Below, one piece after another: positions 33,056 through 63,639 of a stretch of 64,000 bases of DNA (positions are counted from its first letter, which is position 1; each line of letters opens with the position of its first letter). The notes beneath the pieces are model-generated. The model made no database searches, was not told the DNA's origin, and saw only the letters and a program-made list of their open reading frames with translations. The translations under genes and the position numbers were made by a program. The stretch comes from Eucommia ulmoides (taxonomy: Eukaryota; Streptophyta; Magnoliopsida; Garryales; Eucommiaceae), in the NCBI GenBank assembly GCA_016647705.1, contig CM028334.1, positions 5,704,046 through 5,768,045 on the forward strand. The letters run 5' to 3'.

Positions 33056-33602
33056 CGAGTCACTTGTGAGGGAAACCCAACCTATAGACTGGAGATCCCA
33101 AGAAATAGGTTCAAAGGGTAATAACAACTCATGAAGTGATATGAGAAAAATCATGCTATAAATTTGAGTTCTATTTCATAAATGTGTTGTTTGAAGCATG
33201 ATATCTTGAAGCGATAGAAGGTTGAGTTTTTATTAACTCTTAATGAGATCTATACTCTATATTTGAGTGGAGTACCTAGCTACAAGAGTACTCTTGATAG
33301 ATTCACCTATGTGAATGTGGAAGTGTGGCCGCTTCCTATGGAATTTTGGGCAAAATTCTCTAGAGCATTCACTATACTGGGATACACGTGCATGGCCGTA
33401 AAGCACGGGCTTTTGGACTACACCCTGATAGGGTTGTGTGTGTGATGTTGTTAGAGATAGAGTTCAAAACTACGAGTTACTCTAGTATAATCTAAAGCAT
33501 CTTCACTATGTAAAGGTTCAAGTCGATAGACACCTTTTCTTATGCACGATGAATTATACTGCTCGATGAAAAAAATTGTTTTTAAAAATTCAAGTGGGGG
33601 AT

Positions 33603-34602
33603 TGTTGAAACAAATAAATTTTAATTTAATTTTTAGAATAGAAAATGCCAAATGTGTAAAATTGATTTTTTCCTCAAAACCTTTTGTCCCACATTGGTTG
33701 GGAGAGGAAAAATTAAAGTGGATATCTAGGGGTATGTGAGACACTTGGGGTGTGCCTCAAGGGGTACCCACATTTTGTGGAGGGGAGAGGAGTTACATCC
33801 CTATCGGTTTACCACACGCGCGCGCCGTAGCCGCCGTCCGTCCGACCGTGCCGAGTCGCGCGTGTGATGAGGTGGCACTTATTTATTTATTTTTGGATAA
33901 AATAGTTTAATTAAAAAAAAAAAAAAAACAAACAAAACGTGTTTTTTTTTTTTTTTGGAACCGTTGAAAAAAAAAACAAAACGTTTTTTTTTATTAAATA
34001 TTTCAAACGTTTTAACTGAAACGTTTTGAAACGTTTTAATAAATTATTTAAAAACGTTTTTATTTATTTATTTTCGGTTTTAATTCAAATGTTTTTTATT
34101 TTATTTTTTTCTCCTATAAATAGTGTTAATTTTTCAGCACAGAATATAGAACAAAAACAGTGTTCATTTTTTCTGTTTCTGCTCCGGTTTCATTTCTGTT
34201 TCTCTTTCTGTTCCAGTTTCATTTCTGTTTCTGTTCCAGATTCGTTTCTGTTTCTGTTCCGGTTTCAGATCTGTTTCTGTTCCGAAACAATTTTTTTGAT
34301 CTTCCGGAATTGTTCCGATTTGTTCCGGTACTGTTTTGTCAGTCCGATTTTGGTTTCCGAGCAGTTTGTTCGTTTTGCGAACAGTGTGTGGGGGTGCTTG
34401 GTATTCGGGACTTCTACAGTGCAAAGAACGTCCTAGACAGAGGAGAATTCTGGGTTGTTTTATCCTGGGGACGACGGGGCTAATACACTGCTTGCACGTT
34501 CTTGGGCAGAGCCGCGAAACGTCTTAAAGAGAGCGACCTAGTCCGCGACTCATCCCAAGAAATTTTGGTAAACTCGTTCTTTACTTATTTTCTGCAACAA
34601 CA
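33603..34602 (+). repeat. 3' LTR of copia element 1
   Basis: It is 1000 bp and closely similar to the 5' LTR. It is longer mainly through an extra A/T-rich duplication of an AACGTTTT-containing piece (about 33925-33985) and one additional GTTTCTGTTCCAG repeat (about 34198-34225). TATAAATA lies at 34115-34122. Confidence 0.95.
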
Positions 34603-34632
34603 AGATTATATTATTGTTATAGCACAAATAAG

Positions 34633-34671
<39 letters not shown>

Positions 34672-34684
34672 TAGTTTTGGTTCG

Positions 34685-37547: not shown

Positions 37548-40350
37548 TATTATGTCTCTTATCTTTTGTCACATGTTTCTTGGCAACGACGGGAACAACA
37601 ATAAGTTGGGGATTAGTGCACTTTGTGGAGAATCTACCATCAACGAAATCATTTGATTGGGCCATTGCTATCTACACCTACATGATTTCTTCAATCAAGG
37701 AGCAACATAGCAAGTCTTTCCAAATAAAAGGGTGTATACTTGCATTATTGATAAGTAATAAGTTATCTATATATTGTTATTAGTTTGTCAATTAAATTTG
37801 TTTCTAAGTAAATCTTACTTGTCAGTATATGGTTTGTGAGCGTACATCATTATTGATGCCTGAAGTTGATCAAATAGAGGAGTTATCAGACGATACTTTG
37901 TTAGTTGGAGTGCCTCGGTTTGTGAAATGGAATCTCAGGTCCTTAAGAGAGAAACTGAACCCTGAAGCTCTTCAAAAAATCACACCTGAGACGGTAATAC
38001 AAATGTTTCTTTAGGGCTGTTATTACTATTTTAAATTTCATTCATACATGTAACTTGTGGATAAGACAGTTAATTTCTTGCTATAATATTTGTTGTTTCA
38101 AATATTTACTGATTAAAATATTTACTGCAGAAAATCTGCTACAATATATTTACAGTGTTAAATGGTTGTAAGTAACAAAGTATACTTAGGTTTGCTGTGA
38201 AAATTTTTGTTTGAAATCAAATAACAAATTTTGTTAATTAATTTCCATGTTTGTATATTGCTAGGCATATTGTATTTTCTTGGCATCTAATGAATATGAA
38301 TTGTAGGTCAATGAAAACGAATTAAATCCAAGCATTGTTGAGGAGGTACAAATACTTGGTAAAGAAAGGCCTAGCCCCACAACCAATAGATCAACCGGGC
38401 ATTTGCAAAGGAAGAAAACACCCCAAAAAGGTTAATCAATCTTACAAGAGTAAAGCAACAACAGTGCATTTTCACCGACAACGTCAAGTCCATGTGTAAG
38501 ACGACATAGCACATTAAAGACACAAAGCATGTCAAATGTGGCAGAACCTACAAGTTATAGTAAAAAAAGGATGAATGAAAAATATTATTTTGCAATTCCG
38601 TCTTTTAGTATTGAATTAACACAAGAAGATATTAACCAAAATGCATTTGTTGTAGCAAGGATTTTCAGGCCAAGGACACAACATCTGCTAATCCAGGTGT
38701 ATGTCACCCATTCGAAACAGCAAATGAAAAGAAAAAATAAAAAACTCCTCCAACATGTCCTCCAAGTAAATCATCAACAACAAATTTCTCTAAAGTTTCC
38801 AAGAAACTCGAAACAAGCAAACAACGGGCGCGTCTACAATTAAGCGAAAACGATGAATTGGTAGCTAAAAACTGTGTTTTGTCTAACACAATAGTTGAAC
38901 GAGACCAAGAGATAAAAAATCTAAAAATCAAGATTACTTTAGTAGAGAAAAAGTGTGATTTACAAAATGAACAACTGCACAATGAAAACATGCATTTGAA
39001 AAAAGGTATGTCTACTAGAAATGAGCTGAGAGCTGAATTGTCCACTAAGGAAAATAGGATCAAAGTGGTAGAAGAAGAAAACAGACATTTGAAGGAAAGA
39101 ATCCAAAAATCAAACATAAAGTTTCAACCCAAAGATGAGAAACTAGATTCAAGAGGCTTTTCAAATCAATCAACATCATTTGATGAACAAGAAAAAACGA
39201 TTGAAAATGTCTCTAGTTCTCCCACGATAACACAACCTACCAAAGAAGAATCATCTCTAGTACGTAAAATTAGAGGTCGCAATCGGAAAAGAGTTGTTAA
39301 AAGCGATTTTGTGTACGAGCCACAAAGGAAAATGCGGTGCACAAATATTTCAGAGGAAGTTATTGATGTTGATGATATTCCTTTAATAAAAAGGTTGCTC
39401 AAGGAAAAGCTAAAAACATTTCCAAACCGACAAAAATTTGTTGTGGGGAAAGCGATGTCAGACAATGATTGGGAGAAGCTTAGGCACATTTACAAGAACG
39501 CAAAACATGAGTAAGAATTTATAACCTAGCTAAACTTAGATTTTTTTTTTTTTAAATCATTGAAATTTAACAAATTATTCAACAACATCAATGTATGGAC
39601 CGAACGCAACATCTTTTCCGGTGTCAAATTGCACAACTTAATTGATATCATCGAGGACCAACAATTAACGAGCCGGGTAAAATTTCGCATTATTACAAAA
39701 TATATTATCCGATCAACTAATTTTTATATGTGTTTGATGTAGGTGATTGATAGTTTCAGTGCTATACAACTATCAAAACAAAAGAAAATGACAACAAGGA
39801 GAAAAAATACAAGTCAGGTTCATAAAAAAAAAACCATTGATTATGCCAAGTTTAAGTTGGATAATTTCTCCTAAATCTAATAGCATAATTTGTTTTCTTA
39901 CTTTCTACTGCTTTAATAAATAACCACCAAATATCAGATAATATGAAACTAGATGCAAACTAATTTTTTATTGTATGCAATTAAACATACGATAGTGAAG
40001 GAGAAAAGAGAAGCAATGATCAAAGAGCAGCTGGACAAAAAATTAGAAGAGGGACTTTCTAAACGTTGTCCTTTTATTTTATTCCCAATCAATACTCCTG
40101 GTCGAAAAAAGTTGTCATGTCATTGTAGTTTATTGGTTTTCGAGACAGAATCAGGTTCTTTGAAACATTTCAATTCCTTGCAATCTCACTCTACTCATGA
40201 TCCATATATGGAGAATGCAAAATTGATGGTAATATACTTATCCTTGTATTTTATATTCTAATTTTTTCTTTATACCATTATTTTTGGCTTACTAACTATA
40301 ATTATAATTACAATTAAAGAAATCATATATCATGGATTACTTCAAACGGA
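34685..40350. repeat. Large diverged inverted repeat, two arms of about 2.8 kb
   Basis: The left arm (about 34685-37487) is the reverse complement of the right arm (about 37549-40350), with a spacer of about 60 bp. Every coding block of the Ulp1 gene occurs on both strands in mirrored order. The innermost bases pair as ...GAGACATAATA / TATTATGTCTC.... The arms carry many substitutions and small indels, so they are not identical copies. Confidence 0.93.
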
Positions 40351-40700
40351 ACATGACCACACCACATTTCACAATGAAAGATATAGAACCAAAACTTGAA
40401 GTCATGAGAAACAACCCCATCTAATCTGACAACATGTGAGTGAAAAAACAAAGAATGATTTGATTTGTTCATTCATTTATTACATTTTCGTTAATTACAA
40501 TTTTTTGTTACGTTTCGGACCAGATTGTGGACCTATTGTGACATACATAATGCGGCAATATTGTCTTAGAAAGCAAAAAAATATTGCACATTTAGATGGC
40601 AGAAAGATAGCAATACAAGAGAGATGTCAACTCATTCATGACATATTGAACAACATTGTATGCACGAGGATTCACAACCATCGTCCTCGCGGTAATTGAC
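37549..40700 (+). pseudogene. DUF1985/Ulp1 transposon gene, right-arm copy with catalytic end
   Basis: The blocks are 37580-37780, 37829-37996, about 38308-38437, 38529-39514 (coiled coil, frameshifted near 38660), 39560-39680 and 39953-40215, as in the left arm. The last is outside the inverted repeat: GPDCGPIVTYIMRQYC (about 40515-40560), the catalytic Cys region of Ulp1/C48 proteases. In this copy the HW motif reads HC, so His is kept and Trp lost. Ulp1 proteases cleave SUMO from proteins; the role of the transposon version is not known. Missing N-terminus, frameshifts and stops make it non-functional. Confidence 0.75.
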
Positions 40701-46978: not shown

Positions 46979-47560
46979 AGATAGAGTATCAATGGTATAA
47001 ACATGCAACATCAATAGAAAAAATAGAGACAAAAGGCATGAAATCCATAAATCAAACCACTGTTGCACTCGAAATCGGATTGAACAGAAAAAACAAAAAA
47101 AACAAAATTGTTGATTGATCAAACATATTTGTTACCTTGAATCAGAATTAAATTGAACAGATAAAGCAAAAAACAGAGCATTACCTTGAATCAATTAAAT
47201 CACAAAAAAAAAAAAAAAAAAAATTACCTTAAATTGAGGGGTTTTTTGGCACAGATAAATCCGGCACGACACTGCAGACATGAATCGTGAATCATCACGA
47301 TGCATGACCAACGGTAAATTCGTTGATAGATTGAAGCCACGATCTGGTAACTCTTGAAAATCCACAAATTGTACAAGAAATATGGCCACTCCTTCCAAGA
47401 GCGGGTGTAAGACAATAATGGGCCTCCCATAAAATAAAAATAAAAAATAAAAAAGTGTTGACTTTGGTTGGGCTTAAATTAATGGGGTCCATTATTATTT
47501 ACACTTTATATCTGGGTCTAACAAAAAAAAAATCATTTTTTTAAAAAAAAAATGATTGAT
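46482..47560. other. Promoter-side end of the Mutator-like element
   Basis: It is non-coding and includes a (TA)n run at 46942-46975. Blocks around 47225-47400 may be the untranslated leader of the transposase gene. I could not find the partner terminal inverted repeat, so the outer boundary is unknown. Confidence 0.4.
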
Positions 47561-48597
47561 TCCTATATAGTAGGGCTATCATGGTATTGTAAAATTCTAT
47601 GGGTTTAAACTTATTTTCAGTTGAGCTTTTGGGGCCCATGCAAAAGATCCCTATTTTTAATTAGAGTAATTAGAAATTTCTATAATTATTTTAAAATTTT
47701 TTGTATATTAATTAGTTGAAATTGTTTCTAATTACGAAAAATTATTTCTAATTAGGGAGAATTAGAATTTTCTAGAATTATTTCTATAATTTTCTTATAT
47801 TAATTAGTGAGAATTATTTCTAATTAGAGAGAATTAATAAAATTTATTTACGTGTATTAATTAGGGAGAACTATTTCTATAATTTCCATATGCTAATTAG
47901 GAGAAATTATTTCAAATTAGGGAAGGTTAGAAATTTGTATAATTTTTGTATATTAATTAGTATAAATTATTTCTAGTTACGGGGAAATTATTTATAACTA
48001 AGGGAATTAGAAATTTTTATAATTGTTTCTATAATTTTCGTATATTAATTAGTGAGAATATAAGAACATAAGGTGTTTACTTAAAAATATAAGAATTTTA
48101 ATTGAATTCTCGTTGAAATATAGGATAAAAGTTTTCATTCTCAATAAAATGTATGAATACAAGAATATATTTTAAAGAAAAATAATATTACAACTACAAG
48201 GAAAGAGAGAAACGTCTAAAATAATAAAAATGCCCCGAAACTAATATATTCAGTCCAATATCTTTGCAGAATATTTGATTATACCAAATTGAAGCTAAAT
48301 TAAAAAATACGAGAGATCAAATGTGTGATCTCTGAAATCTTAAAGAGTCATTTAAACACCACTCCAAACTCATAGAGATAAAATTAACAAAAATAACCCT
48401 TCACTAGCGAAATTTCATATAATTTTGTTAACAAAAATTGAAATTGGATTATGTTGAAACGAAAATAAAATTAATTTGATAGACAAATAAACAACTCTAT
48501 AAATTTCATATAAAAATAATTTTTTTTTCCTTTATTATTTTTTAACTTTTATAAATTTAAAAATCGATATAGTGCCTTAAGGCACGTGAAATCCCTA
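47561..48597 (+). mobile_element. AATTAG-rich degenerate tandem region with a Helitron-like 3' terminus
   Basis: From about 47650 to 48060, units of roughly 65-100 bp repeat (AATTATTTCTAATTAGGGAG, TATATTAATTAG). The perfect hairpin GTGCCTTAAGGCAC (48572-48585) is followed eight bases later by CTAG and T, a Helitron 3' signature. The 5' end suggested (TCCTATATAGTAG at 47561) is weak, so the full extent is tentative. Confidence 0.45.
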
Positions 48598-49208
48598 GTG
48601 CTAACATAAGTTTATCTCTGCTCCATCCCTATTCGGAGTTGCCGACAACGTCTCAAAATCTCGAAGTTAGTTCGTCGAAACAAAATGATGTTGGAGTTAA
48701 TTTCAAAATGATTTTATTTTTTTAATTAAATGTGCAGAGTCGAGTAGCTAATGTGCAGACTTGCTAACTTATTTTCACCTTTAAACGAGTCAAGCTCAAC
48801 ATATAATGTTAGAGTTTGACTCATGTAAATATACATGAGCTCGAGGTCGGTTGAAAACATAGGCAAGCTCAAATTCAACTCGAGCTGGAAAACAAAATTA
48901 TGTATCTTTAAATTAAAATATAATATAATATTTATAAAATTATTATTTATATAATTTGCTCGTGAACACATTAGAACTGTTGACGAACATATCAGTTCGC
49001 CAAACTCTTCTAATAAATAAACAAGATTTTTTACCTCAAGTCTAGCTCGAGCTGGACCATATTCCAGTTGTAATCTCAATGATTAAGGAATAAATTATTA
49101 TTTATTTTGATATAAAAAAATTTGAAACTGAAACAAAAAATATGGAGAATTTAGAAGTAAATTTACTGTTCCAACAATACTCTGAAAGAAAATTTTTTGA
49201 CAAAATAA
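48598..49208. other. Intergenic DNA
   Basis: A 117-codon minus-strand frame (48726-49079) has no domain or supporting signal. The rest is AT-rich. Confidence 0.5.
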
Positions 49209-49945
49209 TCTTATACTATATATAATAGTAGAAGACATGTCCTTATATTCAAGTATACATAATCTTCTTCATCTCCTTCATTCTCAATTCATTGCCGTTG
49301 ATCTCCACCATCATCTTCATCTCTTACAATAAATTCCAAAGTTCTTCATCTTCTACAATAAATTCCAAAGGTCTTCATTTTTTTTAATTGTCCGTTATTT
49401 TATTTTTTTTAATATATTTCTTACATTTTTTTTTGTTTTTTAATATATCAAATAATGGGTGACCTCATTTAATTTTTTAATCTTTTTTATTTTAGTTAAT
49501 TTATATGATTAAATTTTCTGATCCACATTTTATGTTATTTAAAAAATAAAGTGTAATTGAAAAATTATTTCTACCAAAAAAGAAATTTGATACGATATAA
49601 ATTAATTAAATTAACATTTGCTTTGCTAGACTTACAAAAATTGAATTGTAATTTATGCCCATTTGTGTGTTATTTTATAGTATTTTATTAAAAAATAATT
49701 TGTACATATATTATTTCACTTTTGAAAATATATATTTTCACCCCTTTATTTTTAGAAAAAAATAATTAGAATATTTAAAATTTCATATACTCATCCTCTA
49801 ATTTATATAAATTTCAATTGAACTCTTAAAAAAAATTATCCTATATGTAGATAAAAATCAAAATTATAATATCAAAGTATTCAAATTAAAAAAAAATATA
49901 TTAATATTTTTTTTAGACCTACATATTATGCGGGTCTAAAACTAA
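49209..49945 (+). mobile_element. Short non-autonomous Helitron
   Basis: It starts TCTTATACTATATATAATAG, typical of plant Helitron 5' ends, directly after an A, and ends GCGGGTCTAAAACTAA directly before a T. This fits insertion between A and T with a CTRR terminus. At 737 bp it has no Rep/helicase frame. Its 3' end is within about 50 bp of the first RNase T2 pseudogene. Confidence 0.7.
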
Positions 49946-49994
49946 TATATATGAAAACGCCATTACAATCTCCACTACAAATTCATGCCAAGAA

Positions 49995-50536
49995 ATTGGC
50001 ATGTCATGGTTCAAGTGTTTTTCTCTTGTTCACTGGTTCACTGACCTCCCAAACTCTAAATCACCTCCAGTTGGTGAAAACTTGGACGCCAACCTTTTGC
50101 TCGTTGCCGGATGTGCGACATGTAAGTCTCTGGCTCCGACATTCACCACCCATGGATTATGGCTTGCCGATTCAAATGGGTTTACGATTAGGTTATGCGA
50201 TATACCCTAGGATCCTTCAGTTAGTGATGTTAAGAACTAGGTAATCAGTGATATCAACTTTCTAATTAATGATTATGTACATTACTGATTTTATTATTTC
50301 GGGATTTAAATTATTTCGGGCGGATATCGGGGAGGCTTCATTTTGGGCTCACAAATAGTTCGAGCACGGGAGTTGCTTACATATGAATACGCCAGACTAC
50401 TTCATGTTGGCATCCTCGCAGCAAGACGACTCAATTTTTTGGCCATCCTGTTGGCAGCCAACGTTGTTCCAAGCATGAATGTTGGTTACCTGACCACTGA
50501 TTTCCAGACAACGATCCGACGGGTGATCGTGTGTGG
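49995..50536 (+). pseudogene. RNase T2 (S-RNase-like) pseudogene, plus-strand copy
   Basis: A hydrophobic leader (SSVFLLFTGSLT) is followed by LNHLQLVKTWTPTFC, the first conserved T2 block. After a frameshift comes TFTTHGLWLADSNG (50142-50183), with the first catalytic His in THGLW. A probable intron starts at 50240 (CTAG|GTAATC). The second active-site block FWAHK-FEHGSC (about 50330-50376) carries the second His and has a TAG where a Trp codon is expected. RLNFLAILLAAN...TTDFQTTIRR follows after another frameshift. T2 RNases are secreted or vacuolar enzymes, and S-RNases are the pistil determinants of gametophytic self-incompatibility. Class I/II versus S-type cannot be settled by eye. Frameshifts and the stop make it non-functional. 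Confidence 0.8.
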
Positions 50537-50539
50537 AGT

Positions 50540-51070
50540 TAAGAGGTTGACAAGAAACATAAACCCTTAGGGTCACACCAATTAACGGTTGGATCGCTGC
50601 CTGGAAATCAGTGGTCCAATAACCGATTTTTATGCTCGAAATAACATTGGCGGCCAACGGGATGGCCAAAAAATTGAGTCTGCTTGTAACGTTGATGCCG
50701 ATGATGAAGTAGTCTGTCACATTAATTTGCGAGTAACTCCCATGCTCAAACCATCCGTGAGCCCAAAATTAAACCTTGTAGAAAACCATGCTCTCATCAG
50801 GTCCGGACACAAACTATTAAGCTTCACAGTCCAATAAAGAAGAATAGTAATTATAATCCCCAAAAACCAAAATCGCTAATGTAAATAATCATCAACTAAA
50901 AAGTTGATATAAATAATTACCTTTTACTTAACATCACTAACAGTGACGAGCAAAACGTCGACATCCAAGTTTTTATCAATTGGGTGTGATTTAAGTTTGG
51001 AAGGTCACCGAACCAGAGAACAAGAACGAGAGAAAAAACACTTGAACCAAAGAACCATCAAGATTAAATC
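50540..51070 (-). pseudogene. RNase T2 (S-RNase-like) pseudogene, minus-strand inverted copy
   Basis: It is tail-to-tail with the previous copy and colinear with it when reversed. A signal-like leader (QVFFLSFLFSGSV) comes first, then LNHTQLIKTWMSTFC (about 51050-50945). Next are the intron sequence (AAAAG|GTAATTA) and a continuous stretch, EHGSYS (50747-50730) to LNFLAIPLAANV...TTDFQAAIQPLIGV. It ends in VYVSCQPLN, the C-terminal Cys region. A deletion of about 110 bp has removed the first His block, and the second block has Tyr for Cys. It lies directly downstream of the F-box gene on the same strand. Confidence 0.78.
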
Positions 51071-51071
51071 T

Positions 51072-52040
51072 TCAGAAGACAGAAACCAGGCTTCCCTTAT
51101 AACCAAAAACATAATAGCAGGGACCACGACTTTTAATAAGTTTCTTCATTTTTTGGGTTTTAGGATCATACATGACCACCTTCGACCTTCTGGTTTTTAT
51201 TATAATTTGATCATTCTTCCAAACACCGAGCGGCAAAAGAAGCACTTCTGTAGAAAAAGGTCCAACAGTTAATAGCTTCGACCATTTCCCCTCCTATTTC
51301 ATCACCCACATCTCCATTGATGTCTCACTCACAAGATCATCATAAAGGAAGAGACCAATAGAACCATTGTGCATTGCAAGACAACATTGAGTCATATCAG
51401 GATTACATAACACCCGCTCTTTCACAAACACCTCTTTGCTCATGTTAAACAAAAGGATATAGAAACTTACATTATTATTGGCAGGGAATAGCCAATAGTA
51501 TACTCCCTTAACATAGGGTCTGTTCATTTCATAATGCTAGAAAGTTAGTATCCAAACCACTTTGTAATGGTTGCTCGTAGGGTCAAGTCCAAGGCCAAAT
51601 GCATGAGAATGGTAGGGATTGGGAAAGTCGAGGCAGGGTTTAGGGAGTGGCTTCAACAACCCAATGGCAGGGTTCCACAGAGTTACCTCATCCATCCCAT
51701 CATTATGCAGACAGAATAAGCCATCCAAGGGATCGGCCACAACAGCTGCCTTAACTGGTATCTTCAAATAATTAGGTTCTAGGAAATATGAAGACTCCCT
51801 CTCAAGTGCTTCATCGGGGAACAATGAAGGAGCATACCTATACCTATAGCAACCATCTTAGTAACGATAAATAAGTAGTTGTCCATCGTTTTTGACACCC
51901 TTCTCAGTGTGTTTGCGGATAAAATAAGGACTTTTGATTATGGCGTACCATAGCTTACAGACGCTCTTGAATCGCAATAGGTATTTCACAGGAAGCCATG
52001 ACAAAATGTCAACAACTACATCCTCAGGGATATGACACAT
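51072..52040 (-). pseudogene. F-box protein with FBA domain (SLF/SFB-like type), three in-frame stops
   Basis: One continuous frame of 322 codons runs from ATG at 52040 to TGA at 51072-51074. The N-terminus has an F-box (IPEDVVVDILSWLPVKYLLRFKSVCKLW, about residues 3-30, the Skp1-binding module of SCF ubiquitin ligases). The rest is an FBA region: DGLFCLHNDG...LWNPAI, GLGLDP...HYKVVWIL, YYWLFP, FNMSKEVF, MEMWVMK, GKWSKLLTVGP, and a final GYKGSLVSV. Stops lie at 51858-51860 (TAA), 51537-51539 (TAG) and 51294-51296 (TAG), with no frameshift. Pollen SLF/SFB proteins belong to this family, but so do hundreds of other plant F-box proteins. A copia element begins 73 bp upstream of the ATG. Confidence 0.85.
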
Positions 52041-52118
52041 CTTCGAAAGGTCTTGACATTATATGATCAAAATATTGGGATCATCATAAAAGTTCAACAA
52101 AAACAATGAATCAATATA

Positions 52119-52313
52119 TATTAAAGCAAAAGTGGTAAAAATATCTCTTCTCATTGAGAACTCAAAATTATATTTACAAGAGAGGTTGGAGTGCTATTTA
52201 TAGACAATCAGAATAGCATCTCAACTAACTAAATTAGTTACAAGAATGAATAACTGAAAATCTAACTAACTAACAGAAATAACTAATTGCAATTAACTAA
52301 ATATGGTTTAATA
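52119..52313 (-). repeat. 3' LTR of copia element 2
   Basis: It is 195 bp and nearly identical to the 5' LTR, beside the F-box gene start. Confidence 0.93.
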
Positions 52314-52373
52314 TTCCCCCTCAAGATGGACTGTGAAGATCCTTAACAGCCATCTTGGATAGAAGTGGTACCA

Positions 52374-55300
52374 TCAATGCCGAGGGAAAAGCCTTTGTAA
52401 AATATCTGCAAGTTGATGTTGAGTTCTAATGGGCATAAGTCGAATAACTCTGTCAGTAACTTTATCCCGAATAAAATGACAATCGAGCTCAATATGTTTG
52501 GTCCTTTCATGAAAAATGGGATTTGAAGCGATGTGTATGGCAGCTTGATTATCACAAAACAAAAGAGCTGGAGATGAGATATCAATCTAAAAATCATGTA
52601 ATAATTGCCGAAGCCACACTAATTCACTGGTAGCAGATGCTAGTGCACGATATTCCGCTTTAGCTGAAGATCGGGATATAGTTGTTTGCTTTTTAGCCTT
52701 CCAAGATATTAAAGAATTACCAAGAAACACACAAAATCCAGTAACAAATTTCCTTGTATCCAAACATGATCCCCAGTCAGCATCTAAAAAAGCCTTGAGT
52801 TGAAGAGAAGAATGGGCAGAGAAGAATAATCCTTGACCAGGATTTGATTTGAGATATCTGAGCAAATGATGAGCAGCTTGCATGTGAGGAATTCGAGGAT
52901 GAGCCACAAATTGACTAAGTTTATGCACAGCAAAGGTAATATCAGGTCTGGTAATGGTAAGGTAAAGTAATTTACCAATGCGTCTGCGATACTGAGAAAT
53001 ATCAGCAAGCAGTTCACCATCACTGCCATTCAATTGAGCTTTGGGATCTAAAGGAACCTGAGTAGGTTTACAGGCTAAGTAGCCAGTATTTGCCAGTAAC
53101 TGAAGCGTATAGTGGCGTTAAGAAAGCACCATGCCATGAACAGATCTTGCAATTTCAAGACCAATGAAGTATTTTAGTTGTCCTAGGTCTTTAGGTTTGA
53201 ACTGGCTATAGAGAAATTTCTTCAAAGAATTTATAACTTGACCATTAGAACTAGCAATGATGATATCATCAACATATACTAGTAATGCAACAAAAGATGA
53301 ACCTGATTCTTTTGTGAACAAGGAGTAATCGGCTTTTGATTGAACAAAACCAAATTGGATAAGAACATGAGCAAACTTGGAATTCCACTGTTGTGAAGCT
53401 TGTTTAAGTCCATATATAGACTTATGAAGCTTGCAAACAAGTCGTGTGCCTATTGTAAAACTCTTCCCCTTTCGACTATAACCAAGAGGAAGATCTATGT
53501 ATACATCTTCAAACAAATCGCCATTAAGAAATGCATTATTAACATCTAATTGATTTAGATGCTAATGTTGACTTGTAGCAAGTGCCAGTAAGACTTTGAC
53601 AGTGACTAACTTTGCGACGGGTGAGAAAGTTTTAGTGAAATCAACACCTTCTTGTTGAGTATACCCCTTAGCAACTAAATGTGCTTTATGTCCCTCTAGA
53701 GTACCATCAGAATGATACTTAATCTTGTAAATCCATTTACAACCAATAGAGTGTGTGCCTTGAGGCAAAAGAACAATGGACCAAGTTTTGTTGGATTCCA
53801 TTGCATCTAATTCAGCTTGCATAGCTTCTCTCTATTGTGGCAACTTGACAGCTTGATGATAATATTGGGGCTCATAATGAGAAGAAACTGTTAGGACAAA
53901 TGCCCTGTGCGATGGAGATAAGGAATCATAAGACAAAAAACTTGGATAGAGGATAGGGTGTATTGGAGGATGGAAACTTATGATGCATCAATAAACTGCA
54001 ATGATAATCATGAAGATAGGAAGGAGGTTTAGAAACTCATGAAGACTTTCGAGTAGGAAGAACATCAGAAGAAGCTAAGTCTGGAATAACAGAGGTTTCC
54101 GTTTCTAGGACGGGTGAAGAATTAGGGAAAATAGATGAAGGTGGATCATGATATGTAATAGGAATGTCAGGAGAAGGAACAGGTAAGATAAGGTCAAGAA
54201 AAGGATCAACGAGGGTATCAGGAGCTACAACGGAATGGAATGGATAGATGTTCTCATGAAAAATGAGATCTCTTGAGATGAAAACCTGTTTAGATTGAAT
54301 ATCATAGAGTTTGTAGCCTTTTATACCCGGAGGATATCCCAGAAAAATGCAAATCCTAGACCTTGGTTGGAACTTGGTACGATGAGCCTTAAGAGTGGAG
54401 GCAAATGCAAGGCATCCAAAAACTCTAAAAGAAGAGTAATCAACGGCATGGTTATGAAAAGCTTCATAAGGAGTCTTTTGATTTAACAGAGGTGGAGAAG
54501 TGTGATTGATGATATATGTGGCCGTAAGAATGCACTCAGTCCAAAATTGGATGGGCACACGAGACTGGAAGAATAAAGCCCGAGCAACATTGAGTAGATG
54601 CTGATGTTTTCTTTCGACGACTGAATTTTGTTGTGGGGTGTCCACACAAGAAAATTGATGAAGAACTCTTTTGTCATTAAAAAAATCAGGAAATACTAAC
54701 TCCCGCGCATTATCAGATCGAAAAACCTTGATATTAGTATTGAATTGAGTTGCCACCATATTAAAAAACCTGGGAATCACACTGCTTACATCAGATTTGT
54801 GCTTGAGTAAAAATATCCATGTGAACCTTGTACAATCATCAACCAAAGTAATAAAGTACCGATAGCCAGCATAGGATGAGATATGGTAAGGCCCCCAAAT
54901 ATCACAGTGTATCAAATCAAATGGAGATGAAGACAAATGATTATTAGAGATAAAGGATAATCTTCTTTGTTTAGTTAAAGAACACAGATAACAAGGAGCC
55001 TTTTTAAACGTCGAAGTATCACAATGTAAACAGGCTTGCAAGCCATCTAACTGCCGAGATGATAAATGGCCAAGTCGATTGTGCCATGTATGAGCAGATA
55101 AGTGGTTGACATACACTGTTGAAGGAGTAGGTGAAGTTCCAGTATCCATAACATAGAGACCATCAATGAAATCACCCTTGCCAATCATTTTCTTATTGAT
55201 AAGATCCTGAATCATGAAGCCATTACAAAAAAAACTAACAGTAAGATGATAGCCGTTTGTAAGAGCATCCACATAAATCAAATGCAGCCTGTGGTACAAA

Positions 55301-55717
55301 TAACACATATTTGAGAACGAGGAAAGAATTCAGCCGAACATCTCCACCATAGCTAACTGGTATACGAGTGTGGTTTAGTAAGGTGACAAATGAATTTGGA
55401 ATAAACTTCATAGAGATAAAGTTGGCAGCATTGGAACATATGTGTCGAGTGGCTCCAGAATCGACTATCCAATATTGATTGGAAGAAAAGACAGGATTTA
55501 AAGATACTGAGAAACATATACCTGTAGTGTAAGCAGTAGAAGGAACTTTCTCATTAGTGGGCATCGCAGTGGCTGTCAACTTACCTGAAAGTAAAGAAAG
55601 TAAATGCTGACATTGATCACTGTTGAGATTTTGTAAGAAATTCTCAACATTTGCTTGCGGATCAATCTTAGCCTCTAAATTACAAGGAGGTTGACTAGAA
55701 ACTTGATTAATAGCCAC
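52374..55717 (-). pseudogene. copia 2 protease, integrase, reverse transcriptase and RNase H
   Basis: In order: the protease site WIVDSGATRHIC (about 55475); the integrase finger (H...H...CYLC); the integrase core with HCDIWGPY, RSDNARE and VVERKH (55308-54037); RT with KWIYKIK (53822-53562) and YVDDIIIAS (53516-53118); RNase H (53033-52587); and a terminal block [23 protein letters not shown] ending at 52374. At least four stops or frameshifts separate these blocks, and several stops are one transition from Trp or Gln codons. Confidence 0.9.
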
Positions 55718-56686
55718 TGTATGAGTTGGTGAAAATTTTTCTGTCTGTCATGTCTTAAAACCAGGAGGATAGCCATGAAGCTTATAACAACGCTCAAAAG
55801 TATGACCATGGAGATGGTAATGTGTGCAAAATGGCTTATCCTTTCTTTGACCTCTATAACCACCAGAAAAACCACCAGTAGAACCACCAAAGTGCTGAGG
55901 CCCGCGAGTATATCATTTATTGTTACGATCAGTCTGAATAGCAAAAACCATACTGTTGGTTGCAGCAGATCTAATAGTACTGTGAACTTCAAGTTGTCGC
56001 TGCTGTTCCTCTTGAGATACAAAACCAAATACCTTATTGATTGATGGAATGGGATCCATGAGTAGTATTTGGCTACGGACTGGAGAAAAAGAATCATGTA
56101 GCCCCATGAGAAAGGACATGATGTACTCCATCTGGTAGTGAGAATTTAAAGCTTTTACTCCACCACAAGTACAATTACCACAAGTGCATTGAGGTCTGAA
56201 ATTGCTTAACTGATCCCAGATAGCTTTCGGTTTAGTGAAATAAACGTTGATAGAAAGTTGATCTTGAGCTAAGGTCATTAATTCACGCCTTAATTGAAAA
56301 ATCCGAGGGCCATTCTTTTGTTGAAATCGTTCTTTCAGATCAATCCAAATCTCATGAGCAGATTCAACATAAAGCACACTGGCAGATATCTCTTTGGAAA
56401 TAGAATTAAGTATCCAAGAGATGATAACATTGTTATTCCTCGTCCAAGAATTAAGGAGATTAAGATCGTTACCTTCAGGTTTGGGGATGGATCCATTAAT
56501 GAAGCCCAGCTTGTTCTTCACAAATAATGCAATTAGCATGGCTCGACTCCAGGAGGCATAATTATCTCCAATCAGAGCTTACGACACCAATATAAGTCCG
56601 GTGCTATCGGAATGATGAAGGAAATAAAGACTCAAGTATTCATCTATGGTGGTTGATGAAAAAGTCTCTGCTCCAGAAGATTCCAT
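55700..56686 (-). pseudogene. copia 2 gag
   Basis: It begins at ATG 56686 (MESSGAETFSS). A TAA at 56579-56581 interrupts just before GDNYASWSRAML, the conserved start of Ale/Retrofit-type gag. The frame then runs to 55913. The knuckle (CTHYHLHGHTFERC, about 55830-55790) is in a shifted frame. Confidence 0.85.
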
Positions 56687-57191
56687 AGAGGCCATTAAGG
56701 ATAGATCAACAAATTTTGAGATCTATTATGAACAGAGACGATCGCAAATGCCAATAAACGATCCTTCAATTCTGATTGACTCACTCTGGCGAGCTAATCG
56801 ATCGACGACAATGAAGATCGAAGTAAATCAAAAGCTTAGACGTCGAAGAAAAATCCAGCTGAGTTGACAATCGAACGTGGATAATCGTCGATAGGCGATA
56901 ATCGAAGATAAAAGTAAATAAATCGTCAATCGTCAAGAACGATTGAGGAGCAGCGAAACAGAAGCTTCAATCGGTCGTCAAACAAATCAAGAAGACAAAC
57001 CGAGAAGAGGCAATGAAAAAGAATTGACAAACAAGAATTAGATCGATGATGTACCTGGAGGAACAATATAGATCTGAGCTCAATCATAGATCTGATTTTA
57101 CGATTGATGAAAAGAAGTAAGCGAAAGTGGAAGAGGAGGAATTAGATCTGGAACTCAACCGTGCATTCCCCAAGAATTTCATCTGATACCA

Positions 57192-57386
57192 TATTAAAGC
57201 AAAAGAGGTAAAAATATCTTTTCTCATTGAGAACTCAAGGTTATATTTACAAGAGAGGTTGGAGTGCTATTTATAGACAATTAGAATAGCATCTCAACTA
57301 ACTAAATTAGTTACAAGAATGAATAACTGAAAATCTAACTAACTAACAGAAATAACTAATTACAATTAACAGAATATGGTTTAATA
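57192..57386 (-). repeat. 5' LTR of copia element 2
   Basis: It is 195 bp. Between this LTR and gag lie about 500 bp of leader with ATCGTC-rich sequence. Confidence 0.93.
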
Positions 57387-57473
57387 ATATAGTCTATTTC
57401 TACATAACACAATAGAACGCATACTTGGATACACACACATATTTGTTATGAGGTTTCAACATAAACCATATGG

Positions 57474-57761
57474 TGTCAAGTGGAGTAACTCATTTTATAT
57501 ATAGACTATTTTGAAAAACCTCACAAATTCGATATTGGTTTCTAACACCCACCCTTACGTGCAACACCGCCTTGCACGTGATGCGATCAAACAAAAAAAG
57601 AGACGAGATAAACTTTCAAACAATCGGAGACAAACAAACATGATTTCCCAAACCTACCTTTGATACCATGTCAGGAGGTCCCAATTTAAAACTTAGAGTA
57701 ACTCATTTCATCTATAGACTACTTTTGAGAAGCCTCACAAATTCGATATGAGATTCTAACA
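57474..57761 (-). mobile_element. TRIM (miniature LTR element) of 288 bp
   Basis: Two direct repeats of 93 bp (57669-57761) and 74 bp (57474-57547) share GAGTAACTCATTT, TATAGACTA, CCTCACAAATTCGATAT and the end TTCTAACA. In the minus-strand direction each starts TGTTAGAA and ends TGACA. The primer site TGGTATCAAA (57668-57659) directly follows the 5' repeat, and a purine tract (AAGGGTGGG) precedes the 3' one. The interior is about 120 bp and non-coding. Flanks (TATGG and AATAT) do not match, so the target duplication is lost or one end has moved. Confidence 0.75.
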
Positions 57762-57892
57762 AATATTGACAGTTAAAATTTGACATAATTAAAACAAATT
57801 CTAATTAGGAAAAATTAACGTAATGATTCCATTCACTAAAAGATGAATAGATGCGTCATGTCAAGTTCTTTAAAATTGTAGCTTATTCTTTA

Positions 57893-59369
57893 GAAAGACC
57901 TTTTTGGTCATTGAGAAATGTCTTCGGTGTCCAATTAGCCCCTAAGAAATGCAATTCGACAATTTAACCCTTGACATTTTAAAATAGTGTCTAATTGGCC
58001 CTTCAAGCGAATTCCGTTAACAAAATTGGGAGAAAATGGATAGAAAAAGTCACGTAACAAGCATGTGACATTTGGTCAAGGGTACATGCGTCATTTCATT
58101 CTTACTAATAGATTAGGACCTATTTACAAATTTTGTTAAACTTAAGTGATTAAAAATGTTTTTTTTCTTTAATTTTTTTTCCCAGATCATCTTCTTACTC
58201 TCCGCCGCTGCTCTCTGATCCTTCGTTCACATCTGATCCCTCTGCCACGTTGGCGACGTGTGCTCCGATCCTTCATTCACCTGCGTTGTCTTCATCTTCT
58301 TCGCCATCTTAGTCTTCGTCTTCTGCGTCTTCATTCACCTGCGTCGTCGTTTGAGTCTTCTTTGGTTTCGATTAATTAAGGGAAGTGGAGGCTAGGGTTT
58401 CGATTAAGGGAAGTGGGGCTAGGATTTCGTTTGGGTTTCGATTTCAAAATCGAAACCCAAATCAATTCGATTTCAATTTCGAAATCGAAACCCAAATCGA
58501 AACAGGGTTTCGATTTCAAAATCGATTCGGTTTCGATTTGGGTTTCGTTTTGGTGGTGATGTTCGGCGGTGTTCTTCGATTTTGAAATCGAAACCCCTAG
58601 GTTCGATTTCGATAGTGTTCATCGTTTTGGTGGCGATGTTCGGCGGTGCTCTTCGATTGCGAAATCGAAATCGAAACCCAAAGGTTTGATTTCGGAGGTG
58701 TTCTTTGGTGTTGATGTTCGTTTTGGTGATGGTGTTCGTTTTGATGTTGATATTCGTTTTTGTGTTGATGTTATGTTTTAATATGGGAGCGAAAAAAAAT
58801 ATATGATTATGTTCTGCTCTCTTATTTTTAGCACAAAATTCTTAGAATATAATGTAATTGCTCTTATTTCTTCTTTCATAGAGGTTTGTATTTGGTTTGG
58901 TTGGATATGTCATTCTTTTTGTATTCTTTGAGGTTTTTAATTTTATTTTTAATGAAAAAAAAAAATCAAATAATATTTTCAAAAAAAAATGTTATTTTGT
59001 TCCCATAAATTTGTTGTTCCCATAATTAAAAAAATAAAATTGTTGTTCCCATAATTTGTTATTCAATTGAGAAAGAAAGACCAAATTAAAAAAAAAATGA
59101 TTATGTTCTTTCAATTGAGAAAGAAAGACAAAAAAAAATATTTTGGCCCCTTAACTTTAGATGACTTTTCAAAATTAACCCCATTGTACGCATAAAGACT
59201 AAAATACCCTTAATGAAACGTTGACCATTAGTTGACTTAACAGAATTCGCTTGAAGGGTCAATTGGACACTATTTTGAAATGTCAATGACCAAATTGTCG
59301 AATTGCAGTTTTTTAGGGACCAATTGGACACCCGAAATATTTTTCAAGGACCAAAAAGATCTTTATCCC
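57893..59369. mobile_element. Mutator-type TIR element (9-bp TSD TATTCTTTA)
   Basis: The flanking repeats at 57884-57892 and 59370-59378 are identical. The TIRs of over 120 bp share CTTTTTGGTC, GTGTCCAATT and CAATTCGACAATTT, and TTCAAGCGAATTC (one end's complement). The interior has a GC-richer CTCTCCGCC...CTTCATTCACCTGCG block and a repeat array, but no domain-bearing frame. Confidence 0.85.
58385..58700. repeat. Array of GGGTTTCGATTT / AAATCGAAACCC motifs
   Basis: TTTCGATTTC and its complement GAAATCGAAA alternate many times, so the stretch can fold on itself repeatedly. It creates a Phe/Arg/Asn-rich open frame that repeats FRFQNR; this is not a gene. Confidence 0.8.
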
Positions 59370-59647
59370 TATTCTTTATCTTGGGATGAATAAATCAGTA
59401 TTTAATCATCTAGAGATATAATCAGGCAATACAAGTGCTACAATGGATACTCTGACTCCGAATATATTTTGGCATCTCATCCATCTAAATCCCAGATTTG
59501 ACATCTCTATTCCTCAAATTTCAATTTCGATCCGTTTACGTAGCAAGTCCCTTTATTTCACTCTTAATTTTAAAAAAGTCACATACGCAATTGCAACTTG
59601 TGTTTTAATCCCACGTATTAAAAAAGGCAAAAAGTCTAATACTCTCA

Positions 59648-60099
59648 CGCTGCGTTTGGTACACGGGATTCGAGACGGGATTGGAATGGCCATGGGAATG
59701 GTCATTCCATTTCTAATTTGATATATAGAATTAAATCTCATTCCCATTACCAAAGATTCTCTTATCCCACAAAAATATGGGATTAACCAATACCAAGATT
59801 ATCTATTGGTTAATCCCAGTTACATGGGACTAGATTTTAATTATTCATTGGCCAAAAAATGAGACCAAATACGAACTAAATATTTGAATTGGAATAAAAT
59901 TTAATTAAATTAAATATTATACCTTTTGAAAATTTAATTAAATTATTATTTTATCTTTTAATATCATTTCAATATCACATGTAATCTTTGTTGTCACCAA
60001 ACATCAAACATAGAAATGGTAACGACCATTCTATTCCATTATCATAGTAATTCTAATCTTATTGTCATTTTATTCCATTCTAACGTACCAAACGTAGCA
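59648..60099. mobile_element. MITE with 3-bp TSD (family B copy 2)
   Basis: The ends are CGCTGCGTTTGGTAC and, backwards, TGCTACGTTTGGTAC, flanked by TCA (59645-59647 and 60100-60102). It is alignable with the copy at 45665-46123 throughout (GGGATTAACCAATACCAAG, GGCCAAAAAATGAGA). Confidence 0.8.
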
Positions 60100-60102
60100 T
60101 CA

Positions 60103-61620
60103 GCTACATTTACATGTATCTAAAATATTTATTAGATGTAACAAATATTACCAAAATACGCATGTAATTTGTAACATGTAATATTACATAGGTAAATGTG
60201 ACTAATATTATACAGAGTGAGCACATGCACGCTAATACACAAGCAAAAATCAATTTAAGAAATTAAATCAAAACTTATAGTTTAAATAGAATTAATAACA
60301 TATTACCTGTGCTATTTAGGATTAATCACCGATTATCCCTGGATTTTATATCTCAAATTTCAAGCAGTTGAGAGAGAGAACAATGAGAAGATTTTTCAGA
60401 TCAGAAATTTTAAAAAATTGAGATTAAAAAAACAACTGGTGTCCAAAATTTCAGATTTAAGATTCGCACTACAAAAAATAAGAGAGGTCGAGGAAGAAAG
60501 CGATGGAGAGAGAAACAAACAGCAAAAGACGAATAAAGAAAGGGAGACCACGTCGAAACACCAAACCAGTCAACGAACGGAAGAAGAGAGGAGACTGGGA
60601 GAGATGAGTATACCTGTAAAAATCACAGATGGATTGAAGGAGATCGAAGATGGCGGCAAACGTCTTTGGCACGTACTAAATACCCAAGTGGGTTGGTCTG
60701 ATTGGTAAGGAGATAGATTCGTTTCCTTGTCAACTAGTGATCATCGCTTGTGTTACGTGATCCTGAGCTATATATTAAGTATATGGCTATACCGAATCGA
60801 GCTGAGTATTAAGTGGTCAAGTTTGGTTTGTTTATTTTCCTTATTATTCGAGTTCGAGCCTGAAATCTTTTGTTGAAACTTGATTCGTTTAATAATCAAA
60901 TTGTTTACGAGCTTAATCGAGTATTTTTTTAAAATTGTTTATTAATGAGTTTATACCAACGACCTCTTTTATTTTTTTTAAATTGTTTAATTGTTTATTA
61001 ATTGTTCATTATGTTTACAAAAATAAAAAATAATTTTTTTAAAATAACATAAAGACATTTATGTCATAAAAAGGGTAAATGGTCATTAACCAAAATTACA
61101 AGGGACTAACTGATATTTGTAAAATGACAAGGAAGATATCTGGTATAAGGCCAAAAGATAAGAGAGGTCGTTGGTACAAACCCATTAAAGAAATTCAAGA
61201 GTTTATTTTATTAATTTTTATATGAAAAATAATATATTTTAATTTTATATTAATGAGTTAAGTTCGAACATATGATTTTTGTTTATTTAATAAATGAGCT
61301 TACTTAAAAAAAAAAAAAAAAAGAGTTTTGTTCATTTATTTAATAAACGAGATATTATCGAGTCGAACTCGAGTAGTTCACGAATGACTTAATTTGTTTA
61401 ATGACTTGATTTGTTTATAGTCCTAATAAAGTTTAGGGCAATTCTCCTCTTTCATGGCATCTTTTGAAAGTGAGTTAGGTCCACTGGGTTTTTATAACTA
61501 ACGTTCGATCTTCCTAAGAGCACTCCATCGGTAAAAATCCTGAACGGACAAGATCGATATGGAGAGTGCACCCTTAAAATTATCTGGTAAGATGATTAAT
61601 CAAGCGACCCAAAACACACC
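60103..61620. other. Intergenic DNA
   Basis: A 96-codon plus-strand frame (60418-60708) is rich in Lys, Glu and Arg and has no domain I recognise. The region 60930-61200 repeats TTGTTTATTAAT-like strings. No gene is supported, and no further exon of the DC1 gene was found here. Confidence 0.5.
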
Positions 61621-62658
61621 TTATCGTCTAATAAAAAAATAGTTTAATGAATTCAAAACAAAGAAAATTAGATTGGGATTACCATGAGTAGTTGTATTCC
61701 GTTTCTCAATTGCACAATTCACATGTGCAAAGTACCGGCATCCACCACGGCTGTACAACCATCTCTTCTCCTCCATTCTATCACCGCATATGTTGCAAGG
61801 ATACTCAAACCTCGAATACTCTTCGGGAAAAGCATATTCAAGAGTGAGGGGGTGACCATGAAGATTAGGGCTTTCAATGGTGGTCGGCAACACAGCACAA
61901 TCGTGGTGAACCCAGAATCGATGGCATAAGGTGCACAGATAGGAGAGGCCATCGTCGTGTTCTGTGCCGTTGCCATTACATTTGAACGAGGCGGGCAGAG
62001 GCACATGAGTCAAGGGGTGCTGGTGACTTGGGTGCTTCATCTTGTGGCTGCTTGGGTGCTTCATCAACTCAGTGGCACAGTCTGCGTGGAGGTCAAAGCC
62101 ACAGCGTTCACAATGGTAGACCAAACCCCCGCAATCTCTGTTGCAGGCATCGCACCTGTTACAATCCTCAGGAAGCAAAAACATGGTGAGGGGGTGATGA
62201 GGGTGGAGTGGGTGCTCTGTGATCTCGCCTGGCAAGTCGCGGCACCATTTGTGGAACTTAAATTCACAGCCATGGGTGCTGCAACTGTACAAAGGATTGC
62301 CCGTAAATATGGGTAACTCACACAAGCGGCAGTACCAAACGCTCTCGTTGACACCATACTGCTTTTTTTCGTCAATGAACACCAATGAATCGCGATGGTT
62401 ATACAAATGGTGGCGTGGCTGCTCTGTTTTCTTGCTTGAATCGTCGCGGCACTGTTTGTGGAGCTTAAATCCACAGCCATGTCTGCCGCAACTGTACACT
62501 AGATCGCCCGATTTTATGAGACCACCACACCACTCGTAGTAACATTCTTCGTCACCGTACTTGTGTTGTGCTTCCACCAATGAGTCGCGATGGTTTAACA
62601 AATGGTTCAGGTTCCCGATGTACAGGTACGGCATCCTGAATCTCCTGATGAACTGCAC
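61621..62658 (-). CDS. DC1 (cysteine/histidine-rich C1) domain protein, possibly 3'-truncated
   Basis: The 345-codon frame begins MQFIRRFRMPYLYIGNLNHL and holds about five C1/DC1-type zinc modules. Each has H-x-H-P-L...C-x2-C...Y-x-C-x2-C-x-F-x-L/H-x3-C, for example DCNRCDACNRDCGG...CGFDLHADCA (about 165-200), SYLCTLCHRFWVHHDCA and PCNICGDRM...YFAHVNCA. DC1 proteins are a large plant family linked to stress and redox or hormone signalling; the ligand is unknown. Full members usually have more modules. A good donor (CATG|GTAATC, 61682) lies before the last 20 codons, so the true exon 1 may end at 61683 with later exons missing. The CT-rich tract upstream could be its promoter. Confidence 0.75.
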   Translation of the reverse strand: MQFIRRFRMPYLYIGNLNHLLNHRDSLVEAQHKYGDEECYYEWCGGLIKSGDLVYSCGRHGCGFKLHKQCRDDSSKKTEQPRHHLYNHRDSLVFIDEKKQYGVNESVWYCRLCELPIFTGNPLYSCSTHGCEFKFHKWCRDLPGEITEHPLHPHHPLTMFLLPEDCNRCDACNRDCGGLVYHCERCGFDLHADCATELMKHPSSHKMKHPSHQHPLTHVPLPASFKCNGNGTEHDDGLSYLCTLCHRFWVHHDCAVLPTTIESPNLHGHPLTLEYAFPEEYSRFEYPCNICGDRMEEKRWLYSRGGCRYFAHVNCAIEKRNTTTHGNPNLIFFVLNSLNYFFIRR

Positions 62659-62697
62659 GATGTAAATATGGGTAACAAATAGCGATAGCGCTCTATC

Positions 62698-62995
62698 ATT
62701 TTTTTTTTCTTTTTCCCTTTTTTCTTTTAAATTTCTTTTTCTTTTTCCTTTGCCTCTTCAACAAATTGATAAGAAACCAAAGAATATTAGTGAATCCTAG
62801 ATTTCATTTTTGGTATCATTTTTTTTTCTTTTTCTCTTTTACTTTTCCTTTTTCTCTTTTTCTTTTTCTTTTCTTTTCTTTTCTTTTTATTCTTTTTCTT
62901 TATTGCTTTTTCTTTTTCTTTGTTTTTATTCTTTTTCTTTATTTCTTTATCTTTATTTTTTTTCTTTATTTCTTTTTCCTTAGATACATTATCTT
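62698..62995. repeat. Polypyrimidine tract (CTTTTT)n upstream of the DC1 gene
   Basis: Almost pure T/C on the plus strand runs in two blocks separated by ordinary sequence near 62755-62815. The Phe-rich open frame at 62766-63017 is a by-product. Confidence 0.9.
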
Positions 62996-63639
62996 TTTGC
63001 CATCTTCACATAATTAATAAGAAAACAGAGAACATTAATGAATCCTAAATTTGATTTAAACTGCTATTATGGATTTACATATTTTCCCACTAAAATGGTA
63101 AATTAATTTAATTAAATTCTTAATCTATATCTCTTAGTAGCGTGATAAAACAATAAAAGTATTCCCATTAGAAGGTCACCGTGCTGAGCACAGTCCATTT
63201 TTCATCCAAAATTATTAAATAAATATATATATATATATATTAATTTTGTGCAATTGAAACAAATATGAAACTTGAGGGATTAAATATATAATTTAAAAAA
63301 TCTTTAGGTCCATATAGTCAGCCACCCCTTATTTTAGGGACGAAAAATATAATTTTCTCCAATTTTAATGTAAAAAATGCACTTATGATCCTTAAAGTTT
63401 TAAGAGTTTTTTATTATATAGTCCCCTATAGAGAGATCATTGAGAAAAAAAATCTTTTTTATATGTTTCTTTAGGATTCAGATCAAATAGTATAATTAAT
63501 TAAATTTTTAGTCCTCCAAAAAAATAAAAACAACACTAAAAAGACATATGTACCCCTGAACAAACTCTCTCTCTTATTTATATTAACTATCACTCACCCT
63601 CTCTCTCTCTCACTCTAAGTTCACTCTCTCTCTAAAGTT
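62996..63639. other. Intergenic AT-rich DNA
   Basis: It holds a (TA)n run at 63221-63240 and a (CT)n run around 63569-63610. No gene was recognised. Confidence 0.6.

Follow-up and report, generated by a model that had tools for sequence, protein, structure and literature searches.

A duplicated and decayed RNase T2/F-box segment of Eucommia ulmoides, probably a fragment of an S-like linkage group

In the 946.7-Mb genome of Eucommia ulmoides, a 64-kb stretch of contig C10 (C10:5704046-5768045, hereafter the window, within which positions are numbered) carries a palindrome of RNase T2 sequence abutting an F-box/FBA pseudogene. This locus is probably a non-functional, segmentally duplicated fragment of a linkage between S-like T2 RNases, of class III intron layout, and FBA-type F-box genes. 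As such, the window locus is best read as a piece of an S-like linkage group and not as the S-locus itself.

The RNase portion is a long inverted repeat (50007..51049) whose two arms share 76.7% identity across 412 aligned columns and meet tail to tail near 50530, with an inner spacing of 53 nt. Arm 1 (50001..50540, plus strand) opens with an ATG at 50001, comprises exon 1 to about 50238, an intron at about 50239-50330 and exon 2 to about 50540, and is interrupted by in-frame stops and frame breaks. Arm 2 (50528..51050, minus strand), inverted with respect to it, has no start codon of its own and has lost the THGLW stretch while retaining the intron and exon 2; the 3' end is missing from both arms. 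All three diagnostic blocks named in the initial annotation are legible on arm 1 (QLVKTW..TFC at 50068-50100, THGLW at about 50148-50162 and FEHGSC at 50359-50376), and arm 2 reads QLIKTW..TFC and FEHGSY; the arms further differ in their deletions, arm 1 lacking the segment with the W of 'WPSL', which arm 2 has kept. That annotation's blocks and pseudogene state stand in the main, and its two separate RNase genes are replaced by a single inverted repeat of two partial copies. An ATG at 51058, considered as a start codon for arm 2, was discarded, as it sits in the 3' flank common to F-box copies on other contigs. A search of the 64-kb window at E 0.01, using two F-box and four T2 proteins as queries, detected no further pieces of either family.

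With the pieces of each arm joined in sequence order and X standing for stops and breaks, the score against the Pfam profile Ribonuclease_T2 (cut-off 26) is 55.7 bits for arm 1 (E 9e-15) and 33.7 bits for arm 2 (E 5e-8). Since the pieces score weakly when taken singly, one of seven giving a T2 match of 15.3 bits, under the cut-off, the 67% DNA match of the arms to a C8 locus with a T2 RNase (190 nt, E 3e-11), which involves no joining of pieces, constitutes an important independent check; in a tblastn search of the window, the C8 RNase recovered arm 2 at E 4e-13 and arm 1 at E 1e-10. Similarity between the arms is 85.4, 81.0 and 78.2% in the exon pieces as against 80.0% in the intron, and the differences are spread over codon positions 1, 2 and 3 (14/63, 11/63 and 16/61, respectively), so that the arms have diverged without visible constraint.

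The F-box/FBA pseudogene (51072..52040, minus strand; ATG at 52040, stop at 51074-51072) abuts arm 2 on the same strand and is recognized by the profiles F-box (42.1 bits), FBA_3 (24.7 bits) and TIGR01640 (75.4 bits). The adjacency first described, with RNase T2 sequences immediately downstream of an F-box/FBA gene, is borne out, with the amendment that the F-box is a pseudogene too: three stops interrupt its frame, and about 105 nt retained by both other copies on C10 are missing from it. Its 3' flank (51051..51071, minus strand) is homologous to the F-box copies on C8, C1, C4 and C17, and this homology stops at 51051-51053, where that of RNase arm 2 starts.

Palindrome and F-box occur together three times on C10, once in the window and twice further along the contig (about 5.773-5.785 Mb and about 5.856-5.858 Mb), the copies matching in blocks of 85-97% identity; the places listed by a DNA search of the genome with the palindrome are all on C10. 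Homology to the second copy spans 47389..63403 of the window, in blocks mostly of 85-97%, and homology to the third was traced to about 60674, as far as sequence was compared. In the second copy, the palindrome is split by an insertion of about 9.4 kb. The RNase is broken in all three copies, two of the stops in arm 1 being common to them, and the F-box lesions are different in each. Just upstream of the window F-box lies a Copia-type LTR element (52118..57386, minus strand) with 196-bp LTRs identical at 188 of 196 positions; its absence from the other two segment copies indicates that it inserted later into the window copy. Rough Jukes-Cantor ages, under assumed rates of 6.5e-9 to 1.3e-8 substitutions per site per year, are 11-21 My for the arms, 3-6.5 My for the C10 copies and 1.6-3.2 My for the Copia element. 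Elsewhere in the window, an LRR receptor-like open frame of 943 aa, in which no kinase domain was matched, lies at 3705-6536. A second Copia-type LTR element (28424-34603) has an open gag frame and LTR-like ends that agree at about 89%, and a 5.7-kb palindromic stretch (34678-40364) matches its own reverse complement at about 91% and includes a 336-aa open frame for which Pfam gave no match.

A comparable pair is present on C8, where an F-box (73.129-73.130 Mb, minus strand) faces a T2 RNase (73.128 Mb, plus strand) at a distance of about 0.9 kb. The C8 F-box is 75% identical to that of the window, and the C8 RNase is the best DNA match to the arms among the 28 compared T2 loci, which hold 39 of the genome's 61 T2 matches (most of the others lie in an array on C17); in the tree, too, it is nearest to them. 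Because this convergent layout is also that of arm 1 and the F-box, arm 1 probably occupies the old position and arm 2 would be an extra, inverted copy; on C4, by contrast, the RNase and the F-box next to it share one orientation. A plausible course of events would begin with an ancestor in which RNase and F-box were adjacent, as on C8 today; a partial inverted RNase copy would have come to be placed between them, generating the palindrome; the RNase would have died before the segment (about 7-11 kb, not counting later insertions) was copied, giving three on C10; each C10 F-box would then have decayed separately, and the Copia element would later have entered the window copy. At present the locus yields neither a working RNase nor a working F-box protein; its ancestor may once have served in pollen rejection.

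Linkage of this kind is recurrent in the genome. A DNA search with the window F-box listed places on C8, C1, C4 and C17 besides C10, together with short matches on C11 and C4. The families comprise 61 PF00445 (T2) matches and 109 F-box matches, the latter from a protein search with an open C4 F-box, and all 109 were merged into 79 loci for a co-location count in which tandem clusters make the counts non-independent. Within 200 kb of a PF00445 match, a zone that makes up 0.92% of the genome, lie 17 of the 27 F-box loci scoring at least 110 bits (20 of 27 if the three C10 palindromes are counted as T2), compared with 7/23 at 60-110 bits and 4/29 below 60 bits. Places with both families are found on C4, C8, C11 (5.4, 8.8-9.9 and 13.95 Mb), C15 and C51, and on C10 through the palindromes. 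Close F-boxes without a T2 match within 200 kb are those at C17:41.9 Mb (two loci), C1:41.70, C1:34.4 and C11:20.7 Mb, that at C1:41.70 being about 0.6 Mb from a T2. On C4, a T2 gene lies 42 kb from a window-like F-box and has another F-box beside it in the same orientation. Directly beside the F-boxes on C4, C17 and C1, no RNase remnants were found at E 0.01 in about 1-1.5 kb of flank, searched by tblastx with the arms and by tblastn with four T2 proteins. On C4, C17 and C11 there are F-box relatives that look intact, and on C11 also RNases that do.

Several of these regions have features of their own. At C11:8.80-9.93 Mb, seven T2 places are accompanied by about 11 F-box places of the window's wider group, and two or more of these F-boxes are open. 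For two RNases of C11, open models with a single intron (248 and 247 residues, pI values of 8.46 and 8.28) were picked among several splice options by their GTAAGT donor. At C1:41.00 Mb (L036), a T2 RNase of the window clade reads TQGLW for THGLW and has lost the first catalytic histidine, and the copies at C1:41.118 and 41.126 Mb (L046) have THGLW intact. The array at C17:1.62-2.08 Mb holds 24 of the genome's 61 T2 matches, and in several of its copies the KHGTC site has become HGRYG, HGRHG, HGVYS or similar, with the cysteine gone.

The gene structure of the window RNase also bears on its assignment. A single intron lies between CD..DPSVSDV and LNSLCPDL, fitting position 5, with position numbers assigned to residues by inference and position 9 perhaps uncovered, the 3' end being missing; exon 1 runs unbroken through QLVKTW, and class I genes of this genome on C9 and C13 are interrupted just before QWP. 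As described in PMC5598434, class III genes have intron 5 either by itself or together with intron 9, class I genes with intron 5 alone were observed in grasses only, and S-RNases have one intron at position 5 (two in Prunus) and none at class I position 2. The window RNase has this S-RNase layout and lacks the class I intron at position 2. As the RNase tree is unrooted, it is the intron layout that speaks for class III. This tree comprises 25 rows (18 from the genome, five from PDB and the two window arms), with one row for each multi-gene locus and with L049 (too short), L007, L032, L035, L042, L045, L046, L047, L050 and L051 omitted. In it, the arms group together (98/92, starred), are joined by C8 and C1 (99/94, starred) and then by C4 and C11 (99/97, starred), and the Nicotiana SF11 S-RNase groups with RNases of C51, C15 and C16 (95/97, starred); the window clade, the SF11 clade and class I form separate groups. 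Placement of the arms inside the clade of SF11 with C51, C15 and C16 is rejected (p-AU 4e-5, SF11 being the sole S-RNase reference). The phylogeny called for in the initial annotation accordingly puts the RNase in a clade of its own, outside that of SF11 and not firmly in class I/II; neither a firm class I/II placement nor an F-box outside the SLF clade without linked partners, the two outcomes named there as fatal to its proposal, was found, in a comparison that for the F-box covered sequences of this genome.

An intact C11 RNase scores higher with the PDB RNases NGR3 (73.5 bits), MC1 (68.2), LE (65.1) and NW (62.3) than with the S-RNases SF11 (53.1) and S3 (47.0), which, at the level of sequence scores, tells against an S-RNase reading. 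The joined arm pieces, which are pieces of broken genes, have pI values of 8.97 and 8.76; S-RNases are given as 8-10 (PMC4451870). Amino acid pattern 4, absent from S-RNases, was not seen by eye in arm 2, in a region that is damaged. The intact gene expected of an S-RNase is lacking, all three C10 copies being broken.

As for the F-box, a tree of 11 rows (the window and 10 others of the same genome, chosen from the 109 matches) places the window with C4, C17 and C1 (100/100, starred) and then with C11 (100/99, starred). At the next step, C51 joins the window group against C5, C2 and C3, giving a split of eight F-boxes from three others that has 93/92, unstarred; two long branches meet in this tree. 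Within this comparison inside one genome, the split is suggestive of a kinship with F-boxes linked to the SF11-type RNase clade. On C51 (1.075 Mb), the SF11 clade is represented by three near-identical T2 RNases, accompanied by 14 F-box places, of which six are open over about 355 residues, in an arrangement that looks tandemly repeated. By clade, C51 would be a better S-locus candidate than the window. Its RNases end in HDEL, a signal of the ER-retention type, and have pI values of 6.11-7.06 in models with a GTAAAG donor, judged the most plausible of seven splice options per RNase. Since these ends are combined with a pI below the 8-10 of S-RNases, even the candidate favoured by clade is not a clean S-locus.

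These results bear unequally on the three explanations initially offered, namely a degenerate S-locus, a duplicated fragment of one, and a chance pairing of two large families. That the window locus is a true S-locus relic, its RNase once an S-RNase and its F-box once an SLF deciding pollen rejection, would agree with the class III intron layout, the basic pI of the surviving pieces, the F-box partner with its linked copies, and the position of the RNase-linked F-boxes on one side of the F-box tree. Yet the rejection of the arms from the SF11 clade (with its single S-RNase reference), the F-box grouping with C51 at only 93/92, unstarred, and the better claim of C51 by clade, with three RNases beside SF11 and six open F-boxes, make such a strict reading unlikely. 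Chance neighbourhood could draw on the sheer size of both families and on the many class I and II RNases that also have F-box genes within 2 Mb (Ramanauskas and Igic, PMC5598434). It is, however, poorly compatible with the same pair standing within 1 kb on C8 and with the strong co-location of the window's F-box group with T2 RNases at the 200-kb scale; recurrent linkage makes chance very unlikely, to the point that it can be nearly disregarded. The duplicated fragment agrees with the threefold segment on C10, F-box/T2 linkage at several places and the class III intron layout, and is the reading preferred here.

Two further explanations would assign a present function to the palindrome or to its relatives. 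As a working hairpin-RNA locus, the palindrome would give rise to small RNAs silencing related RNase genes, in keeping with its strong fold: 501 nt fold at -265.5 kcal/mol against -132.1 (sd 6.5) over 100 shuffles (z -20.4), and 1061 nt at -476.4 kcal/mol, computed without shuffles. In addition, the best 21-nt window has two mismatches in four of the 14 T2 loci tested (3-5 with one shuffle per locus); on C1 (L036 and L046) these windows fall in the QLVKTW coding stretch, and on C8 and C11 outside the coding pieces found, so that palindrome-derived action in trans on T2 loci may be envisaged from sequence complementarity. Inverted gene copies, however, fold well without any function, and the palindrome of the second copy is interrupted by its insertion. 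Comparison of copy 1 with copy 3 shows changes at 58 of the 410 aligned pair columns; counting Watson-Crick pairs only, none of the changed columns is paired in both copies, 45 are paired in one and 13 in neither, and with G-U pairs 15 (plus transcript) or 18 (minus transcript) are paired in both and 31 or 36 in one. Compensatory change was not seen, none of the four two-sided columns being paired in both copies with or without G-U, and a comparison of two copies in full, which has little power, gives no sign of selection on hairpin pairing. A working hairpin locus is, on this balance, highly improbable. It also seems rather improbable, if somewhat less so, that more than one intact RNase/F-box cluster (C11, outside the SF11 clade, and C51, ER-tagged) still works as a pollen-pistil recognition or detoxification system in a role other than self-rejection, with the window as a fossil offshoot whose palindrome would perhaps be a source of small RNAs against the same RNases.

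The significance of a duplicated S-like fragment is shaped by the biology of the species. Eucommia ulmoides, the only species of Eucommiaceae (PMC7246395), is a dioecious asterid in which self-incompatibility is reported absent, and dioecy is the ground on which its class III RNases have been judged improbable S-RNases (PMC7994793). On the same contig as the window, C10:33723266-33723397 is a 98% match, over 132 nt, to a published ddRAD read of a putative male-specific locus, MSL1 (PMC7246395). A second read from that study matches repeats on many contigs at 91-95%, and a third had no match among the 40 scored of 3985 candidates. Among top-ranked full-text results, no literature on an S-like locus in Eucommia was found. 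The linkage of T2 RNases and F-boxes at several places, intact-looking or dead, renders testable whether self-incompatibility preceded dioecy here and, moreover, whether duplication of the locus ended it, a route by which other eudicots are proposed to have lost self-incompatibility (PMC8774079). In addition, the window copy provides a dated example of the decay of an RNase/F-box pair.

Comparison with known systems places the locus among several partial analogues. Inverted-repeat small-RNA loci, such as persimmon OGI and Brassica Smi, likewise contain an inverted copy of part of a gene from which a hairpin could form; unlike them, the window palindrome is known from sequence alone, and conservation of pairing was not seen. 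In the account of the E. ulmoides T2 family EURNS, class III makes up 90% of T2 genes, the term 'F-box' is absent from the main text and no such pseudogene was seen among the EURNS described there (PMC7994793). The putative or relictual S-loci proposed for Citrus, Theobroma, Gossypium and Phaseolus, where multiple F-box loci accompany class III RNases (PMC5598434), of which Citrus has since been assigned an S-RNase system (PMC11022811), resemble the present regions in having class III-type RNases near F-boxes, more than one RNase and in-frame stops in some F-boxes; they differ in that E. ulmoides is dioecious and that the same F-box group accompanies several of its T2 clusters. The closest counterparts are S-like loci, in which class III RNases and linked S-like SLFs, some degenerate, lie outside the S-locus (PMC8774079). 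As in the type-1 locus on Antirrhinum chromosome 7 described in that source, the window has a T2 RNase, here of class III intron layout, beside an F-box/FBA gene, in a duplicate removed from the S-locus and partly pseudogenic. It differs from that locus in that two partial RNase copies form a palindrome, C10 carries the segment threefold, RNase and F-box are both dead, and the RNase belongs to a clade of its own, with closeness to an S-RNase of its own family not established. Physical linkage to F-box/FBA genes, as expected of type-1 S-like loci, is present in the window, which fits this already known kind of locus.
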